Notes: generated by a model not told the origin, from the letters alone. Shown: positions 2,221 to 11,552, counted from the stretch's first letter. The stretch is DNA of 64,000 nt from Candidatus Methylomirabilis sp. (GCA_020722945.1 DYJV01000003.1:1-64000); one strand, 5' to 3'. A program made the numbers and translations.

Positions 2221-5200
2221 ATGGATTACAACAAAGGGATAGTAGAGGATTATTACAAAAGTAGGAATTACCTTAAAGCACTTTCATACATCGAAAAATT
2301 TCTCCGTCAAAATCCTGACAATTTTGAACTAAATAATGACTATGGCCTTATATACACTCTTGTATACGGTTTTGAAGCAGGAGTTGGCTACCTAAAAAAA
2401 TCTATAGATTTAAAAAAAGATAATCTTGAAGCTATAACCAACATTGTTGAGATATATATTCAGAATAATCTTCCATTTTCTGCTATCAAAATACTCGAAA
2501 CAAGTGATATTTCTAATTATCCAAATCTTAAAGAGAAACTAAATTTTCTCAAGAAAAATTTTACTCCTGAAAAAGTTTCTTTCTATATACCTGTTTATAA
2601 TGTTGAAAAATATATAGTAAATTGTCTTAACGCTATATTTAATCAAAGTTATCCAATACATGAAGTCATTATAGTTGATGATTCCTCTCCAGATAATTCA
2701 ATTTCTAAAATCAAAGAGTTTATTGATAAATATGGTGACAAAATAAAGATACTTACTCATGATACCAATAGAGGACTTGCTGCTGCACGTAATAGTGCAC
2801 TCCAAAATGCAACAGGAGATTATCTCGCTACTGTTGATACTGATGCTCTCCCTGAAGAGACTTTCCTCGAGAGTATTATGATGGAGTTTTTTAAGAATAA
2901 ATATGATAAAAAATTAGCAGGGATAGGTGGTAAACTTTTAGAGGCAAACTCCTTATCTCTCACTGATAGATGGCGTGAAGTTCATATGAAGCAGCATTGG
3001 GGTGACAAAAATATAGATAACCCAGAATTTTTATTTGGTAGCACATCAGTTTATAAGATTTCTGCTTTAAAAGAGATTGGTGGTTTCAACGAATCATACA
3101 AGACAAATTATGAAGATTGCGATTTAGCTATCAGACTTAAAAAATCAGGATACAAAATCTCTTACATAGCAAATGCAAAAGCTGTTCATTTAAGGAGTGA
3201 CAATCTTTTATCTCTGATTACCACTTACTACAATTGGGTTGCTGCTCCATACAAAGGGAAATTAACATCTTTTGAATCTATAAAAGATAAACATGAATTT
3301 ACATTCAATATCTTATCCAAATTTACAACTCAAGATATTTCAAATAAAAGGTTTCATCTTCTTTATCCAGAATTTTTTTCAGCTCTTTTTTGGGTTATAA
3401 AAGATCTTGTCAACTCAGATATAGACTTTGAAGAGAAGATAGATACTGCTTACGCTTTATCTGGAGTTATATTTTACGGATTAAATCAAAACCTTAATAT
3501 CTCAGATAAACTAAAAGATTTTATATATCAAGATACTGAAAGATTCACAGATCTGCTCCAAATTAAGAAGAAAGTTTCAGAGATAGCATCTATCAAGTCA
3601 GACGATCCAAATTATATATCCTTAGCAATAGGAAGAAATTTTCCAAAAGCCAATATACAACTAATATCCTCTGTTGGTGCTACAATCTCAAAGTTTTTGG
3701 CATTTGAGCCTATGCTATACAAAATGATTGAGGTCTCAAGAGTCAGGATCGAGTATGAAGAGAATTTGGAAAATCAATCTCCAAATAAGCAAAGTAAAAT
3801 TTTACTCCTAAATCTCCCTTGGAGAGATGGAACAAGATATGGGATAAGGGCAGGTTCAAGATGGCCATTCACTAATGAAGTTCCTCAGGAAAATTGGCAA
3901 ATACCACCAAGTTATGTGCCATACCCTTTTTTCCTTGGCTATGCGACATCAATATTAAAAGAGGATGGATTTACGACTCATTTTATAGATGCTATTGCAG
4001 AAGGTGTTCTTGATGAGGAATTTTTTCAGAGGGTTAAAGGGGTCTCTCCAGATATTATATTTATAGAAACAGCTACAGCATCGATATACAACGACATAAA
4101 TTATGTCCGTAAGTTAAAAACTTTCTTACCAGACTCTAAAATTATTTTTTCAGGGACACACGTTTCATACTTTAAAGATAAATTTTTACAAGAGTATCCT
4201 TGTGTAGATGGGATAATAGTAGGAGAGATTGAACAAACTGCTCTTAAAATTGCACAATACTTTGAAAAACATCATAACTTTGAAGGATTTAATGAGAAAG
4301 GGTTTATGTTTTACGACAAAAATTCTTTAATATCGGGGAGTAGTGATAGAGGAGAATTGGTTGAAATTGACAAATTACCACTTCCAGAAAGATTGACTAC
4401 ACCTGTTTATAATTATGAAGATCTTTTTGCAGGGATGCTTTTCCCTTCACTACAAATTCATTCAACAAGGGGTTGTCCATTTGGATGTATATACTGTGTT
4501 TGGCCTCAAGTATTGTATCAAAGCAGAAGTTATAGGACAAGGGACCCAATCAAAGTTGTAGATGAGATAGAAGAGATGATAAAAATTTATGGATACAAAT
4601 CTTTCTATTTTGATGACGACACCTTCAATATAGGGAAAGAGAGAATTTTAAAAATATGTGAAGAGATAAAGAGAAGGGGTCTTGATAAAATACCTTGGAG
4701 TGCAATGTCAAGAGCTGACACATCAGATTTTGAAACATTAAAAGCAATGAAAGATGCTGGATTGGTATCGATAAAATTTGGAGTTGAATCTGCAACGCAA
4801 CAGCTTGTAGATGCTTGCGGGAAGGGACTTGACTTAAACAAAGTTGAAGAGTCTGTGAGATATTGTCAAGAGCTTGGTTTAAAATACCATCTCACATTTA
4901 CATTTGGACTACCTGGGGAAACAAAAGAGACAATCGAAAAATCCATTCAATACTCATTTGAGTTGAATCCTGATACATGTCAGTTTTCACTTACCACCCC
5001 ATTTCCAGGCACCAAACATTTTGATATGGCAAAAGAGAAAGGGCTGCTCCTTACAGAGGAGTGGGACAAATATGATGGGAATAGATACACTGTAATGAGA
5101 GGAGAGAATCTTACAAGAGAAGAGCTCGAGGGAGCAGTAAAAGATGCCTACCAAAGATGGGACGAATTTGACAGAAAGAGAAAAGGAGCTAAATCTAAAG

Positions 5201-6387
5201 ATCTAAGCAAATTCAAAAAACCATCTATATGTTACGACAAGAGAAATCTAAAAGTGATTTTTGTATGCCAAGATGGATATGATCTTGCTCCTGCAAGGGT
5301 CAGATGCTACAATTTTTCAAAAGAGCTCAATAAACTTGGTATCAAAAGTGAAGTTTTGTCATTTTATGATAATTTGAAAGCCTCTGACCAAGTGGGGCCA
5401 TGTGAAAATATGTCAGATTATGAGAAACTGAAATTAAATATTAAGGCCTACGAAAAACTTAAAGATGAGAAAAATGCAATTTTTTATGTTCAGAAATCTG
5501 GTTATCACTTTTTAGCTCCATATCTTGTAGCAGAAGAGAATGGGAATAAAATAATTTTCGATTACGATGATTTTGATCTCGGATGTTACCCTTTCCAGAA
5601 TTTACACAAATTTATACCATCCCTTTCTCCTGACAAATTATTTGAAGATTTGGTAAAAAAGAGTGAAATATGTATCGGCTCAAGTAAATTTCTTGTTGAT
5701 CTTATGGCAAAACATAATCATAATTCCCACTATATAGTCACAGGCGTTGATATGGATAAATTTAATTATGGCAATAACAATAAAGAGAGTAATGGAACTG
5801 TAGAGATAATATGGATGGGGCATGTATGGTCATCAGATATCTTTAAAAGTTTACTTTACTGTGTTACAAATTATTTATCTATTGATAAAGAAGCAATAGA
5901 TAAAAGCAGGCTCAACCTTATACTTTTCGGGACTTATAGTAAGGTTCTTGAAGAGAGTATTAAAAAATATACACCCAAATTATGCAACAGTAAGATAGTT
6001 TTTCATTCTAAAAAAGCACCTGACGAAATACCTAATATATTGAACAAAACAGATATAGGTCTTGCTCCACTTGATACATCAAACCCATTTACAACTATGT
6101 TTAATAAATCAAAGAGCCCTACTAAAGTTTTTGAATATATGGCTTGTAAGGTTGCAGTTATTGGGACAAAGATAGGTGAAATTGAAAATCTTATAACCGA
6201 TGGAAATAATGGCTATCTATTCAATAATCAAAACGAAGTTGAATTTAAGGAGAAATTAACCAAATTAATACTTGATGATAATATGAGGAGAGAGTTTCAG
6301 AACAGAGCTTACAAAAAAGTAAAAGAACATTTTTCACTTGAATCTATAGGTAAGAAATTGGCAAAAATAATTTATTCTAATGTATAA
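2221..6387 (+). CDS. TPR-GT2-B12-binding/radical SAM-GT4 fusion protein
   Basis: A 1388-residue multidomain protein with four visible modules. Residues 1-115 are TPR-like helices. Residues 118-345 are a GT2 glycosyltransferase (FYIPVYN strand, VDDSSPDNS loop, VDTDA in the DXD position at 205-209). Residues 345-520 are helical and unassigned. Residues 525-685 look like a cobalamin-binding domain of the B12-dependent radical SAM type, and 740-960 are a radical SAM core with Cys752, Cys756 and Cys759 (CPFGCIYC) and a GVES motif at 855-858. Residues 1010-1388 form a second glycosyltransferase of GT-B type. B12-radical SAM enzymes typically methylate or rearrange unactivated carbons, so this may transfer and modify a sugar or its carrier. 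The frame is open throughout with no sign of an assembly join. RBS GGGGG lies 6 bases before the ATG. Confidence 0.82.
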   Translation: MDYNKGIVEDYYKSRNYLKALSYIEKFLRQNPDNFELNNDYGLIYTLVYGFEAGVGYLKKSIDLKKDNLEAITNIVEIYIQNNLPFSAIKILETSDISNYPNLKEKLNFLKKNFTPEKVSFYIPVYNVEKYIVNCLNAIFNQSYPIHEVIIVDDSSPDNSISKIKEFIDKYGDKIKILTHDTNRGLAAARNSALQNATGDYLATVDTDALPEETFLESIMMEFFKNKYDKKLAGIGGKLLEANSLSLTDRWREVHMKQHWGDKNIDNPEFLFGSTSVYKISALKEIGGFNESYKTNYEDCDLAIRLKKSGYKISYIANAKAVHLRSDNLLSLITTYYNWVAAPYKGKLTSFESIKDKHEFTFNILSKFTTQDISNKRFHLLYPEFFSALFWVIKDLVNSDIDFEEKIDTAYALSGVIFYGLNQNLNISDKLKDFIYQDTERFTDLLQIKKKVSEIASIKSDDPNYISLAIGRNFPKANIQLISSVGATISKFLAFEPMLYKMIEVSRVRIEYEENLENQSPNKQSKILLLNLPWRDGTRYGIRAGSRWPFTNEVPQENWQIPPSYVPYPFFLGYATSILKEDGFTTHFIDAIAEGVLDEEFFQRVKGVSPDIIFIETATASIYNDINYVRKLKTFLPDSKIIFSGTHVSYFKDKFLQEYPCVDGIIVGEIEQTALKIAQYFEKHHNFEGFNEKGFMFYDKNSLISGSSDRGELVEIDKLPLPERLTTPVYNYEDLFAGMLFPSLQIHSTRGCPFGCIYCVWPQVLYQSRSYRTRDPIKVVDEIEEMIKIYGYKSFYFDDDTFNIGKERILKICEEIKRRGLDKIPWSAMSRADTSDFETLKAMKDAGLVSIKFGVESATQQLVDACGKGLDLNKVEESVRYCQELGLKYHLTFTFGLPGETKETIEKSIQYSFELNPDTCQFSLTTPFPGTKHFDMAKEKGLLLTEEWDKYDGNRYTVMRGENLTREELEGAVKDAYQRWDEFDRKRKGAKSKDLSKFKKPSICYDKRNLKVIFVCQDGYDLAPARVRCYNFSKELNKLGIKSEVLSFYDNLKASDQVGPCENMSDYEKLKLNIKAYEKLKDEKNAIFYVQKSGYHFLAPYLVAEENGNKIIFDYDDFDLGCYPFQNLHKFIPSLSPDKLFEDLVKKSEICIGSSKFLVDLMAKHNHNSHYIVTGVDMDKFNYGNNNKESNGTVEIIWMGHVWSSDIFKSLLYCVTNYLSIDKEAIDKSRLNLILFGTYSKVLEESIKKYTPKLCNSKIVFHSKKAPDEIPNILNKTDIGLAPLDTSNPFTTMFNKSKSPTKVFEYMACKVAVIGTKIGEIENLITDGNNGYLFNNQNEVEFKEKLTKLILDDNMRREFQNRAYKKVKEHFSLESIGKKLAKIIYSNV

Positions 6388-6413: not shown

Positions 6414-7244
6414 ATGAATGAATTTGAGGAGTATAGAAGAGAGAAGTGGAAACTGCTCGACTTTGAAGATAATGAACCACCCTATATCCCTATCAGAATT
6501 AGGGCAACAATAGAAGAGGTAGAAGATTGTTATCAGAAAAACACCCTTTACTTAATAAACAATTTTGAAGAATTAAAGAGAGAGAGAGTAATCCAAATTC
6601 CAGATAAAGGTTCATTTGGAGTTCACAAGTTACTTAATTTCCCTCTGACCAAAAAAGATATATCTACTCTTACACTCGAAGAGAAACTTGATACAATTTT
6701 TAATAGATGTTCAGGTTGGATTTATCCTGATGAGGATAAATTTCTTACAGATATAGCTATAAGTTACTCCAAAACAGCTTCTTGTATAGTTGAATTGGGT
6801 AGCTACTCTGGTAAATCTGCTAACTTATTTGCATTTATCCTCTCAGATGAAGAGATAACAATTAATTGCATTGATAAATTTGATTATCCTACACACGATA
6901 TTATTAAAGCACCTTTCAATACTCTTTCAGGTATTCATTTTGATCAATTTTTAAAATGGACATATTGGTTTAGAGATAAACTCAATATTATCAGATATAA
7001 TACTTGGAAAGCACCAAAATTTTTTGATGATAACTCTGTTGATATAATATTTATAGATGCTGGTCACGATTTTGACAACTGCACAAGAGATATCCTCTCT
7101 TGGATACCCAAATTAAAAAGAAATGGTCTCATGATTGGGCACGATTATTGTCCAGAGCATCAAGATGTTATACTTGCAGTTAATTCTATCTTTGGGAAAA
7201 ATTTCGACAGAGGACCAGGTCGTATCTGGTATAAAATTTTATAA
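6414..7244 (+). CDS. Class I SAM-dependent methyltransferase (Methyltransf_24 type)
   Basis: About 276 residues. The SAM-binding motif I ([11 protein letters not shown], near residues 126-136) and the acidic motif [10 protein letters not shown] (about 213-222), followed by GLMIGHDYC, are typical of Methyltransf_24 enzymes often found in glycan clusters. These methylate sugar hydroxyls or related groups; the substrate here is unknown. The frame is open from a TTG at 6390, but the ATG at 6414 is preferred because AAGGGG sits six bases upstream. It is followed after 13 bases by the first epimerase. Confidence 0.75.
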
Positions 7245-7257
7245 AAAGGGGGAACTT

Positions 7258-8331
7258 ATGTCAATTGCACTTATCACAGGTTCTGCAGGACTTATTGGTT
7301 CTGAAGCTGTAAAATTTCTAATAGAAAAGGGGTTTGATGTTGTAGGGATAGACAACAACCTTAGAGAATACTTTTTTGGTAAAGATGCCTCTACAAGGTG
7401 GAATAAAGAATTCCTGACTAAAAAATATAAAAATTACTACCATTTTGATATAGATATACGAAATGAAGAGGAGATAGCGAAAGTTTTCAAAAAGTTCAAA
7501 TTTAACCTTATTATCCACACTGCAGCCCAACCATCACACGACTGGGCGGCAAATGAGCCTTTTACAGATTTTACTGTAAATGCAAATGGGACTTTGACAT
7601 TGCTTGAAAATTTTAGAAAATACTCCTCTGATGCTGTTTTTATCTTTACATCTACTAATAAAGTTTACGGTGATACACCAAATAGATTACCACTTGTTGA
7701 GCTTGATAAAAGATTTGAAATTGCCGAGAATCATCCATTTTACAAAGGTATAGATGAAACTATGAGTATCGACCATACATTGCATTCACTCTTTGGGGCA
7801 AGCAAAGTAGCTGCCGATATTTTGGTCCAAGAGTATGGTAAATATTTTAATCTCAAAACAGCATGTTTCAGAGGTGGATGTCTTACTGGACCAGCACATT
7901 CAGGGACAAAACTCCATGGATTTTTATCTTACCTTATGAGATGTTGTATATGGCAAAACAAATACTTTATTTACGGTTACAAAGGTAAACAGGTCAGGGA
8001 TAACATTCACTCTTACGATTTAGTCAATATGTTCTGGAATTTTTATCAAGCTCCGAGAAAGGGTGAAGTTTACAATGCAGGTGGATCAAGACACTCTAAT
8101 TGCTCTATGCTTGAAGCTATAGAATTGTGTGAGGAGATATCTGGTGAGAAGCTCAACTACGAATATGTTGAACAAAATAGAATTGGGGATCATATATGGT
8201 ATATAAGTGATGTTTCAAAGTTCAAATCGCACTACCCTGAGTGGAATTTTAAATACAATTTAAGAGATATTTTAAATGAGATATACGATTATCAGAATTA
8301 TCTCTATAAAAATGGGATAGTCGAAAAATAA
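7258..8331 (+). CDS. NAD-dependent sugar-nucleotide epimerase/dehydratase
   Basis: 357 residues of the extended SDR family, nearest in style to CDP-paratose 2-epimerases. The N-terminal Rossmann motif [11 protein letters not shown] binds NAD, and [10 protein letters not shown] holds the catalytic Thr/Ser region near 131-140. The usual YxxxK motif reads FGASK, with Phe179 in the Tyr position and Lys183 kept. The frame is open further upstream into the methyltransferase, but the ATG at 7258 has AAAAGGGGG just ahead and begins exactly at the Rossmann fold. It probably supplies an activated sugar to the glycosyltransferases of this cluster. Confidence 0.8.
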
Positions 8332-8368
8332 CTATTTTTTAATTCCAAAACTGGCAAAGGTGAATAAA

Positions 8369-9436
8369 ATGAATATTTTAATAACAGGTGGTGCTGGATT
8401 TGTAGGGAGTAATTTGGCTATCTATCTAAAAGAAAGATACAGAGACTCCCAAATATATGTTCTTGACAACCTAAAGCGAAGAGGTAGTGAGTTTAATCTT
8501 GAAAGACTTAAAGAAAGTGGAATTATTTTTATCCATGGCGACATAAGGAGTATTGAAGATTTCTTTGAATTAAGGGATAAAGATATTAATTTACTAATAG
8601 AATGCTCTGCAGAACCCTCCGTTCTTGCTGGTTACAGCGGAAATCCTTACTATCTTGTAAATACCAACTTAAATGGACTTATCAACTGTCTTGAATTTTG
8701 CAAAGATGTAAAATCAGATATAATCTTTCTATCAACAAGCAGGGTTTACCCTTACGATACTATCAATAGCATACCGGTATCAGAAAATAGCACCAGATTT
8801 GTATGGGATAAATATGACCTTAATGGATTCTCTTCTGAATTTGGAATAAGTGAGGAGTTCCCTCTTAACTCTCCAAGGACTCTTTATGGAGCAACAAAGC
8901 TTGCAGGAGAGTTTTTTATTCAAGAGTATGCCCAAATTTCAGGATTCAGATATACTATAACAAGATTTGGTGTAATAGCAGGACCATGGCAGTTTGGTAA
9001 AGTTGACCAAGGTGTTTTTACTTTATGGATAATGCACCATTATTTCAAGAAAAATCTTAAATATATAGGATTTGGGGGTAACGGTAAACAGGTGAGAGAT
9101 CTTCTTCATATTGACGATCTATGCGGCCTGATTGATTTACAGATAAAAAACATTGATCAATTTAACGGAAAGATTTTTAATGCTGGAGGGGGATACAATG
9201 TCAGTTTATCTCTCCTTGAGACTACTCAAATCTGCGAAGAGATCACAGGCAACAGAATAGATATTCTCAAAGATAACAATGAGAGACCTGGTGATATTAT
9301 TATTTACATTACAGACAACAGAAATTTAACTAACAAATTCAAATGGTCTCCCAAAAGATCAGCAAGAGATATTATCCAAGATACATTTTATTGGATAAAG
9401 AGTAATGAACTTAAGATAAAGAAACTTCTAAATTAA
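8369..9436 (+). CDS. NAD-dependent epimerase/dehydratase (CDP-paratose epimerase-like)
   Basis: 355 residues, extended SDR. The N-terminal ILITGGAGFVGSN motif binds NAD; STSRVYPYD supplies the catalytic serine region and LYGATK the catalytic Tyr and Lys. It is a relative of the preceding gene with intact catalytic residues, so the two may act in sequence on one nucleotide sugar or form a pair. The ATG at 8369 is chosen over a GTG at 8360 because AAAGG ends eight bases before it and it starts the fold directly. Lies 29 bases before the next glycosyltransferase gene. Confidence 0.8.
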   Translation: MNILITGGAGFVGSNLAIYLKERYRDSQIYVLDNLKRRGSEFNLERLKESGIIFIHGDIRSIEDFFELRDKDINLLIECSAEPSVLAGYSGNPYYLVNTNLNGLINCLEFCKDVKSDIIFLSTSRVYPYDTINSIPVSENSTRFVWDKYDLNGFSSEFGISEEFPLNSPRTLYGATKLAGEFFIQEYAQISGFRYTITRFGVIAGPWQFGKVDQGVFTLWIMHHYFKKNLKYIGFGGNGKQVRDLLHIDDLCGLIDLQIKNIDQFNGKIFNAGGGYNVSLSLLETTQICEEITGNRIDILKDNNERPGDIIIYITDNRNLTNKFKWSPKRSARDIIQDTFYWIKSNELKIKKLLN

Positions 9437-9464: not shown

Positions 9465-11219
9465 ATGAGCGATGAAAGATATGAATATTGGTTACTTATA
9501 AATGATACAATCTCAAACTTTGATTCTCTGCCTAATATTGAATTAAGAGCCAATAAGATAAAGAGTTACATCATTGACAATCTTAAAACAGGAAATATTT
9601 TTGGAAGAGAGTATCTTACGGTATATTTTATCTTTAAGAGGCTTATTCCCAAACACTCCCAACAAATAGACTCACTTATAAATTTATATATATTAGAGTA
9701 TTCTAAATATCCAAAAGACTCTATTGAAGCTTTTGCCATTAATGACAATATCTTTATACTTGAAATATTGAATGGTAATTTTAAATCTGGACTTGAAAAC
9801 TACATCAAAAGGCTCTTTCTTCTTGACTATAATTTTGCAAGAAAGAATCCTCCCCAATGTCCACATAATTTTATTGGAAGTTTTCTTGTTTCTGCTAATG
9901 TCAAACCCCTATTATTCAAAATAGTTAAAGATCTTTTCTCAATAGATTTTTACTTTTCTTTAAATAAGAGGGATAGAAGGAGTGTTGTAAACTGGGTTTG
10001 GAACACACTTTGGGGTTTTACTCCAAGAATTCTGCTAAATGAAAGAAAAGAGATAGAAGATATTTATGAGGATTTGAAAGACATTATATACAAATTAATT
10101 TCACTCGATTCAATAGATGAAGTTCTGCACTTTTCAATGTTCGTTTATAATATAGCTATCGAAGCTTTTATTCAGGGGCAAGATGAATACAAAAAATTAC
10201 AAGATGAAATAGTAGCCCCATGCTCTCAATATTACAAAAAATGGATAGAGAAAAATAAAAATGTTATTAAAGAACTCCCTTTTAAAAAGATAGAAAATGG
10301 AAAAAAGAAAAAAATAGCTCTTGTAAGACCTAATATTGGTTATTGGTCACCCTTTATAGCTGAATATTCAATTCTTAAAGGATTAAAAGAAGATAAAAAA
10401 TTTAACGATAATTATGAGATAATTGTATATTCAATGGATTACTTTGAACTATGGAACTCTATGAGAGATGATTGTAGGGCAGATTCAAGAAAATGCTCAG
10501 AAATGTTAATGGAGATAGGTTCAGATTACAGAGTTCCTCTTGATGAATTTCATAAAGATCTTTTTTATAACAATCACTTAAATAAAATCATCAAATTCAG
10601 AGAAAAAATCATAGAAGATCAGATTGATATCCTCATATATTCTGACCACCTATACTCTTGTGGAGAGTTTCTCTTTTTATCAAGAAGTGCACCAAAACAG
10701 ATATATTGGGCACACTCTAATTTATGGTATGATGTCGAGGGGATTGATAAAAGAATAATTCATTTTTCACCCTATGACAATAGATTCGAAGGTAATCCTT
10801 TCAAGTGGGAGTTTTTTACTGTCACAATAGATAAAAAATTTTTAAATCCAGAAGAGGAAACAAAAAAAAGAGAAGCTGAGAGAATAAAAAAGTATTTTCC
10901 AAAAGGGAGTATCTTTTTAGGAAGTATAGGGAGATTATCCAAAATTAATAATTGGGAATACCTTTCAACAGTAGCAGAGATTATGAAAAGTAATCCAGAA
11001 ACTGTCTATATTGCTTGCGGAACAGGGAATGAAAATGAAATAAAGGAGAAACTAAAAAAATTAGGGATATCTGATAGATTTTATATGGTTGGTTTTGTTG
11101 ACCCACATATATACGGCTATGTTATAGATATATACCTCAATACATTTCCAGAACCAAGTGGACAAAGTGTAGTAGAATTTTTGAATAAAGGTCTAAACAA
11201 ATTTTTAGTGAGCTTGTGA
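9465..11219 (+). CDS. Glycosyltransferase, C-terminally truncated
   Basis: 584 residues. The N-terminal ~270 are helical and of unknown role. From about 283 (KIALVRPNIGYW) it is a GT-B glycosyltransferase with resemblance to SPINDLY/OGT-like enzymes, including a GSIGRLSKINN loop and the donor-binding segment FPEPSGQSVVEFLNKG. That segment is normally followed by a further C-terminal stretch; here it stops after about ten more residues. The stop lies directly beside a decayed transposase fragment, so an insertion probably removed the 3' end. Loss of the last helices may inactivate the enzyme. The gene is last in the glycan cluster. Confidence 0.7.
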   Translation: MSDERYEYWLLINDTISNFDSLPNIELRANKIKSYIIDNLKTGNIFGREYLTVYFIFKRLIPKHSQQIDSLINLYILEYSKYPKDSIEAFAINDNIFILEILNGNFKSGLENYIKRLFLLDYNFARKNPPQCPHNFIGSFLVSANVKPLLFKIVKDLFSIDFYFSLNKRDRRSVVNWVWNTLWGFTPRILLNERKEIEDIYEDLKDIIYKLISLDSIDEVLHFSMFVYNIAIEAFIQGQDEYKKLQDEIVAPCSQYYKKWIEKNKNVIKELPFKKIENGKKKKIALVRPNIGYWSPFIAEYSILKGLKEDKKFNDNYEIIVYSMDYFELWNSMRDDCRADSRKCSEMLMEIGSDYRVPLDEFHKDLFYNNHLNKIIKFREKIIEDQIDILIYSDHLYSCGEFLFLSRSAPKQIYWAHSNLWYDVEGIDKRIIHFSPYDNRFEGNPFKWEFFTVTIDKKFLNPEEETKKREAERIKKYFPKGSIFLGSIGRLSKINNWEYLSTVAEIMKSNPETVYIACGTGNENEIKEKLKKLGISDRFYMVGFVDPHIYGYVIDIYLNTFPEPSGQSVVEFLNKGLNKFLVSL

Positions 11220-11222
11220 TAC

Positions 11223-11552
11223 ATTTCAAAAATAAAATGTGAATTACCACTTAGACCGATATACCACAGAAAAGAAAACAGGATAGAGGGACATATTTTT
11301 TCAACAGTGTTTGCCTATCATCTACTTTGTGTAATCTATAGGAAACTTAAAGAACGTGGAATAAAACACTCTTGGAATACAATCAGAACGCATATGAATA
11401 GGCATAATAGGTCAGTATTAACAATGATAAATGCTGAAGGTAAAACAATTTACATAAAAGACACATCAGAGCCAAGTGAATTTAATGTGGAGATATACCA
11501 TGCATTGGGATTGAGCGAAAAACCACTAAAACGAGTAAAAACAATAGTTTAA
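11223..11552 (+). pseudogene. IS transposase remnant (C-terminal part)
   Basis: In the same frame as the preceding gene but after its stop, about 110 codons encode the C-terminal end of a DDE transposase of the IS4/IS1634 type: the conserved RPIYHRKENRIEGHIF stretch, then the helix FAYHLLCVIYRKLKERGI and HSWNTIR. The catalytic D and D residues and the whole N-terminal two thirds are missing, so it is inactive. A GTG at 11307 could start an 81-residue protein, but this has no ribosome binding site that I see. The left edge, near 11,195-11,222, is the likely break with the truncated glycosyltransferase. Confidence 0.75.

Follow-up and report, generated by a model that had tools for sequence, protein, structure and literature searches.

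A predicted cobalamin radical SAM module between two glycosyltransferases in Candidatus Methylomirabilis sp., and its family of recurrent fusions to glycan-assembly enzymes

An open reading frame of Candidatus Methylomirabilis sp. that places a cobalamin/radical SAM (rSAM) core between two glycosyltransferase (GT) modules raises the questions of whether such a polypeptide is real and what radical chemistry would do during glycan assembly. The frame (P0001, positions 2221 to 6387 on the plus strand of the 64,000-nucleotide stretch analysed here, the window) starts with ATG, contains no internal stop and encodes 1388 amino acids in the order (TPR-like)-GT2-helical extension-B12-binding-radical SAM-GT4. 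Codon-usage log-odds, trained on the other genes of the window, favoured the annotated frame in 27 of 27 consecutive 150-nt segments, and the signal was unbroken at the GT2/linker/rSAM/GT4 junctions, including residues 950-1050; there is therefore no sign of a frameshift, and the frame is intact between the modules as originally predicted. A chance or assembly artefact as explanation for the whole frame was rejected on the frame and codon evidence together with a Nitrospirota homologue (L038), although a little doubt stays with the GT4 join. The fusion is confirmed as a single open frame. Some doubt persists because it comes from a single genome, a 2.5-Mb draft in 184 contigs (98% complete, 5.8% contamination). 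The start of the window is the end of a 69-kb contig, and the source genome encodes CobS.

Profile searches of the individual segments matched Glycos_transf_2, B12-binding, Radical_SAM and Glyco_trans_1_4, so that of the fusion originally proposed the GT2, B12-binding, radical SAM and GT4 modules stand above their Pfam cutoffs, but the TPR module does not. The N-terminus (2221-2565, plus strand as for all modules; residues 1-115) is helical and weakly TPR-like: TPR_19 reached 17.6 bits against a cutoff of 25 (E 0.0049), designed TPR proteins matched residues 10-80 (phmmer, 1.4e-10) and residues 1-65 had low pLDDT in the AlphaFold model, which covers residues 1-1005 (mean pLDDT 78). Because the Pfam score is below cutoff and the phmmer matches are designed proteins, the TPR label is tentative. 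The GT2 module of GT-A fold (2566-3240, residues 116-340) matched Glycos_transf_2 over residues 120-285 (1.4e-30, 106.9 bits against a cutoff of 23.3), carries a DxD-type D206-T-D208 and E298-D299, both kept in homologues, and gave Foldseek matches to other GT2 enzymes, e.g., 6p61, RmlT and TarP. It is followed by an all-helical C-terminal extension (3241-3792, residues 341-524) of low to medium pLDDT, and structure prediction of the 345-525 region, as the original prediction had proposed, accordingly returned a poorly modelled helical segment. No clear structural match to the extension alone was found by Foldseek, and residues 101-525 as a whole matched GT2 enzymes; the extension is included in the full-length alignment to the Nitrospirota homologue, and stand-alone GT2s (441/442 aa) encoded one gene upstream of the rSAM gene in two Omnitrophota loci (L064, L050) carry a C-terminal extension that aligns weakly to it. 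From these Foldseek matches, the coverage by the homologue and the stand-alone enzymes, we interpret it as belonging to the GT2 module rather than as a new domain.

The B12-binding Rossmann domain (3793-4290, residues 525-690) is supported by Pfam at residues 574-674 (2.9e-10) and by a model with pLDDT mostly above 90 at 570-690, bearing out the fold expected at 525-685. The radical SAM core (4438-5190, residues 740-990) matched Pfam Radical_SAM at residues 748-910 (5.2e-22), again with pLDDT mostly above 90, and its CxxxCxxC cluster motif is formed by C752, C756 and C759, the very cysteines that had been named, which are 100% conserved in 69 of 69 rows of the core family group described below. 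The B12-binding domain precedes the radical SAM core as in class B-type cobalamin radical SAM architecture, and cobalamin use is predicted from this domain order and the Rossmann fold. Cobalamin binding has no universal residue signature. The C-terminal GT4-type module of GT-B fold (5236-6384, residues 1006-1388) matched Glycos_transf_1 at residues 1227-1365 (7.7e-15, 55.3 bits against a cutoff of 26.4) and Glyco_trans_1_4 at residues 1209-1351 (2.2e-13) and contains the motif SKSPTKVFEYM at 1297-1307; the second Glu of the E-x7-E motif is kept, and the first position is Ser, likewise in homologues from G043. The two GT modules said to flank the core are both complete, and they lie in a glycan operon.

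Among NCBIfam profiles the best match of the fusion was HpnJ (TIGR03471; 4e-74), at 250.1 bits against a cutoff of 577.6, compared with 791 and 739 bits for genuine HpnJ proteins (L107 and L088). BchE (TIGR02026) followed with 189 bits against a cutoff of 481, the AprD4 profile gave 102.7 bits against 500, the C-methylase HpnR only 79 bits, and TIGR04295 (B12_rSAM_oligo) 63 bits against 400, which marks a different family. The nearest solved fold was AprD4 with its sugar substrate paromamine (PDB 6fd2; Foldseek E 5e-23, TM 0.76-0.78 by target), a match that does not prove B12 use by the fusion, and the next folds were TsrM, CysS, MgmA, OxsB and TokK. The radical module is not HpnJ and belongs to an unnamed clade next to it, across which C752-xxx-C756-xx-C759-x-W761, D798-D799-D800 and H890 are conserved.

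The family comprises at least 557 relatives, of which the best 80 were kept for alignment. In the resulting tree the fusion sits in a group of 69 rows apart from HpnJ; the branch holding it has a support of 86, exactly these 69 rows were recovered with a support of 65 after long-branch removal, and support for the core clade as a whole is regarded as moderate. The HpnJ clade (14 rows, support 100) does not include the fusion. Core members derive from Omnitrophota, Nitrospirota, Nitrospinota, Cloacimonadota, Desulfobacterota, Pseudomonadota, DPANN archaea and others. A scan of the genome contigs with the whole protein yielded no relative, and the second of the two genomes available for the fusion's phylum contained no strong rSAM match. 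In sampled surveys, strong matches to the rSAM family were present in 4 of 246 genomes of the phylum of L038, 7 of 395 of that of L081 and 63 of 384 of that of L047; in these three surveys an N-terminal GT2 fusion was found in L038 only, no other match extending into GT2.

Open frames around the 80 family loci (the best 80 of at least 557), subjected to Pfam, revealed a range of fusions. The closest, in Nitrospirota (L038, MYbin3), is a GT2-extension-rSAM protein of 988 aa with 40% identity to the fusion over about 1000 residues, and the two pair in the tree (support 99). A Nitrospinota protein of 1840 aa (L074) reads Glyphos_transf-GT2-GT2-rSAM-GT1; its C-terminal GT1_2 had no BLAST match to the GT4 of the fusion, and it pairs (support 96) with the rSAM-GT1 protein L081. 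Six rSAM-GT2 proteins (L059, L063, L065, L068, L070 and L075) were observed, and the C-terminal GT2 fusions form a single nine-row group that includes one unfused member (support 81). The rSAM is joined to a SPASM-type rSAM in L044, L045, L048, L049, L056, L057 and L069, and a protein of 1902 aa from a genome of the Omnitrophota phylum (L160) combines an O-antigen-type ABC ATPase with rSAM-rSAM/SPASM. GT fusion arose several times; the GT-fusion state requires at least six changes on the family tree. The exact order GT2-rSAM-GT4 was found in one draft genome only among the loci and surveys examined, with no homologue carrying the same GT4 join; homologues of the GT4 are separate genes near rSAM in G043, L047, L057, L069, L079, L096, L098 and L105. 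The proposed survey of architectures has therefore recovered partial orders in Nitrospirota and Nitrospinota, but not the full one. The genomes of L038 and L074 are unannotated, with no description of their fusions found in open-access papers, and neither such fusions nor the rSAM family in glycan loci turned up as a described system in the open-access literature searched, an absence that is not proof. Hence the claim that no system of this order had been described stands as far as characterised systems in that literature go, although the order is not isolated (L038, L074). What appears to be new here is a radical SAM family without a name, adjacent to HpnJ, whose members have repeatedly fused to enzymes of glycan assembly.

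The fusion is embedded in an operon on the plus strand. Upstream lies a 658-aa ORF with GT2 and a GT1-like C-terminus (222-2198); downstream follow a class I SAM methyltransferase (Methyltransf_24 by Pfam; 6414-7244), a nucleotide-sugar epimerase/dehydratase, SDR1 (7255-8331), a second of the same type, SDR2 (8360-9436), and a GT1-like ORF (9465-11219) whose GT-B domain ends early and gives way to an apparent transposase remnant. Among solved structures, CDP-tyvelose 2-epimerase is nearest to SDR1 and SDR2. The L038 fusion has an SDR1 homologue directly downstream (70% identical), then an SDR2 homologue (53%), and homologues of SDR1 and/or SDR2 also occur near the family rSAMs of L081, L092, L097, L106 and L114. 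No other evidence places the rSAM in a sugar pathway as strongly as this conservation of the SDR set in different phyla. None of HpnI, HpnK and HpnH was present among the scanned operon ORFs (NCBIfam profiles). In Omnitrophota L045, L047 and L057, genes of Wzm/Wzt-like ABC exporters stand directly upstream of the family rSAM, and a Wzt_C-type ABC ATPase is encoded elsewhere in the source genome, on a separate contig. A GT neighbour was counted at 39 of 58 core loci versus 3 of 14 HpnJ loci, a comparison that is biased and suggestive only, as the profiles were partly built from the same loci.

The intact modules and motifs, the B12 fold, the family, its repeated GT fusion and the conserved operon, all directly observed, form the basis for a mechanism. 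The family probably remodels sugars during surface-glycan building, and we consider it somewhat better than an even chance that the fusion is a multifunctional assembly-line enzyme: it would lengthen a surface glycan carried on a lipid and remodel one of its sugars through radical chemistry. We infer the lipid-carried substrate, the order of steps and the chemistry. The unusual activated sugar would be made in the same operon by SDR1/SDR2 and may be methylated by Methyltransf_24. GT2 would add a sugar to the lipid-linked glycan; the B12/radical SAM module would then form a 5'-deoxyadenosyl radical, cobalamin serving as the radical partner, and remodel the added (or acceptor) sugar in its glycosidic linkage; GT4 would add the next sugar, the product being handed on inside one polypeptide. 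This scheme of placing, remodelling and extending is suggested by the two nearest sugar-acting relatives, which both act after sugar attachment: HpnJ forms a cyclitol ether from glucosamine already on bacteriohopanetetrol (PMC12583986) and AprD4 deoxygenates paromamine, a pseudodisaccharide (PMC5461906).

The reaction would resemble those of HpnJ and AprD4 (ring or C-C remodelling, or deoxygenation) more than a C-methylation. By analogy, non-methyl chemistry is favoured, because HpnJ and BchE do not methylate and AprD4 deoxygenates a sugar; BchE, OxsB and HpnJ form the known non-methylating group of cobalamin radical SAM enzymes, engaged in ring formation or rearrangement (PMC13142503). Of the original proposal that the enzyme methylates or rearranges a sugar during chain building, sugar modification is likely and rearrangement preferred, with methylation a serious rival. 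As a class B methylase the module would transfer a methyl onto an unactivated sugar carbon and leave the glycan with a sugar that is branched or C-methylated, which we regard as unlikely, if the weightiest of the alternatives. Methylases make up the majority of known cobalamin radical SAM enzymes (PMC13142503), aminoglycoside sugars are C-methylated by the cobalamin radical SAM enzymes GenD1 and GenK (PMC5461906), and the folds ranked after AprD4 include the methylases TsrM, CysS, MgmA and TokK. However, the top two profiles (HpnJ, BchE) and the top fold are non-methylases, HpnR scores poorly, and the active-site-type residues W761, D798-800, H890 and K868 are common to the fusion and HpnJ. 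The case against methylation is weakened because the third-ranked profile, ApyD, is a C-methylase; an assignment of ApyD as a C-C crosslink former proved wrong.

That the rSAM acts instead on a protein or peptide such as flagellin or pilin, or on the lipid carrier, with the GTs glycosylating the same target, is improbable. Flagellin genes adjoin two family loci (L054, L074), and the Omnitrophota SPASM-type rSAM fusions look like peptide-modifying enzymes; yet flagellin, precursor-peptide and pilin genes are absent from the operon of the fusion, and the genes next to family members encode sugar epimerases, GTs and O-antigen-type ABC exporters. A setting in flagellin glycosylation was dropped, as the two Flagellin_N matches of the source genome are FlgL-like and lie on other contigs. 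It is also very improbable that a stop between the rSAM and GT4 genes of a normal operon was lost through faulty sequencing or assembly. The contaminated single draft would allow for it, and in other genomes L038 stops right after the rSAM and rSAM and GT4 are separate neighbours, but frame and codon signal run continuously through residues 950-1050 and rSAM-GT1 joins occur independently in L074 and L081.

That members of one B12/radical SAM family have been fused repeatedly to GTs, and also to an O-antigen-type ABC ATPase, suggests that radical chemistry acts on surface glycans; to our knowledge, no characterised example of radical chemistry on bacterial surface polysaccharides exists. The idea predicts sugars that composition analysis in its current form would miss, and it is directly testable, since the family, its partner genes (SDR1, SDR2, GT4) and cultured carriers are named; Geomonas propionica (L101), Azospirillum isscasi (L098) and Skermanella stibiiresistens (L105) are cultured organisms with a stand-alone rSAM of the family. 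In its boldest form, which we offer tentatively and think rather doubtful, the idea would make the family a new class of radical enzymes for glycan tailoring: in surface polysaccharides of bacteria (and DPANN archaea), its members would turn a sugar in glycosidic linkage into a unit that is carbocyclic or otherwise C-C-remodelled, while physically tied to the GTs or exporter of the chain.

Compared with known systems, the fusion most resembles HpnJ, its best profile over residues 526-980, with which it has in common CxxxCxxCxW (including W761), DDDTF (D798-D799-D800), AGSR, H890 and K868, and which likewise works on an already glycosylated substrate (BHT-glucosamine). It differs in the distinct fixed positions of its family, e.g., R543 and W534, whereas HpnJ is a stand-alone enzyme of hopanoid synthesis without GT fusion. 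With AprD4, the nearest solved fold and nearest PDB sequence, it would have action on sugars in common, but identity is only about 21% and AprD4 is a stand-alone enzyme of a small-molecule antibiotic pathway working with the reductase AprD3. BchE has the same B12-then-radical SAM order and is a non-methylase, while its substrate is a porphyrin. TIGR04295 has a name but is uncharacterised; the short name of this B12-radical SAM family suggests oligosaccharide loci. Among the relatives, L074 has two GT2s preceded by an additional module at its N-terminus, whereas L038 retains the order of the fusion through the radical module, with SDR1 and SDR2 adjoining, and ends right after the rSAM, without GT4.

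The GT1-like ORF of the operon (window 9465-11219, + strand) carries a truncated GT-B domain at its end and is followed, at about 11256-11552, by a putative C-terminal remnant of a DDE transposase, assigned as IS1634/IS4-like by eye and not by search. The end of this gene was probably lost through an IS-related event (window 9465-11552). Elsewhere in the same draft genome, a gene cluster close to a contig end (locus L167:9163-14001, G000 contig C164) encodes a Wzt-like ATPase, proteins resembling methyltransferases and a radical SAM protein; this is possibly the exporter locus for the glycan of the fusion operon.

The survey of the phylum Omnitrophota revealed giant proteins of 1680-1917 aa, in which the B12-radical SAM unit is chained to additional SPASM radical SAM modules (loci L160:2067-7772, L161:4419-10169 and L163:157-5196); an O-antigen-type ABC ATPase forms the N-terminal module of the L160 protein. 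At two Omnitrophota loci (L064:8213-11359 and L050:1461-4920), an uncharacterised 157/259-aa protein separates a stand-alone extended GT2 from the radical SAM protein. Family members from loci L051, L073, L054, L072, L076, L047 and L067 are extended by about 150-340 aa at the N- or C-terminus, and these added segments match no Pfam model. Members from DPANN archaea (Nanoarchaeota, Woesearchaeota and Diapherotrites; loci L044, L058, L041 and L082) occur amid bacterial ones, which suggests gene transfer across domains within this radical SAM family.
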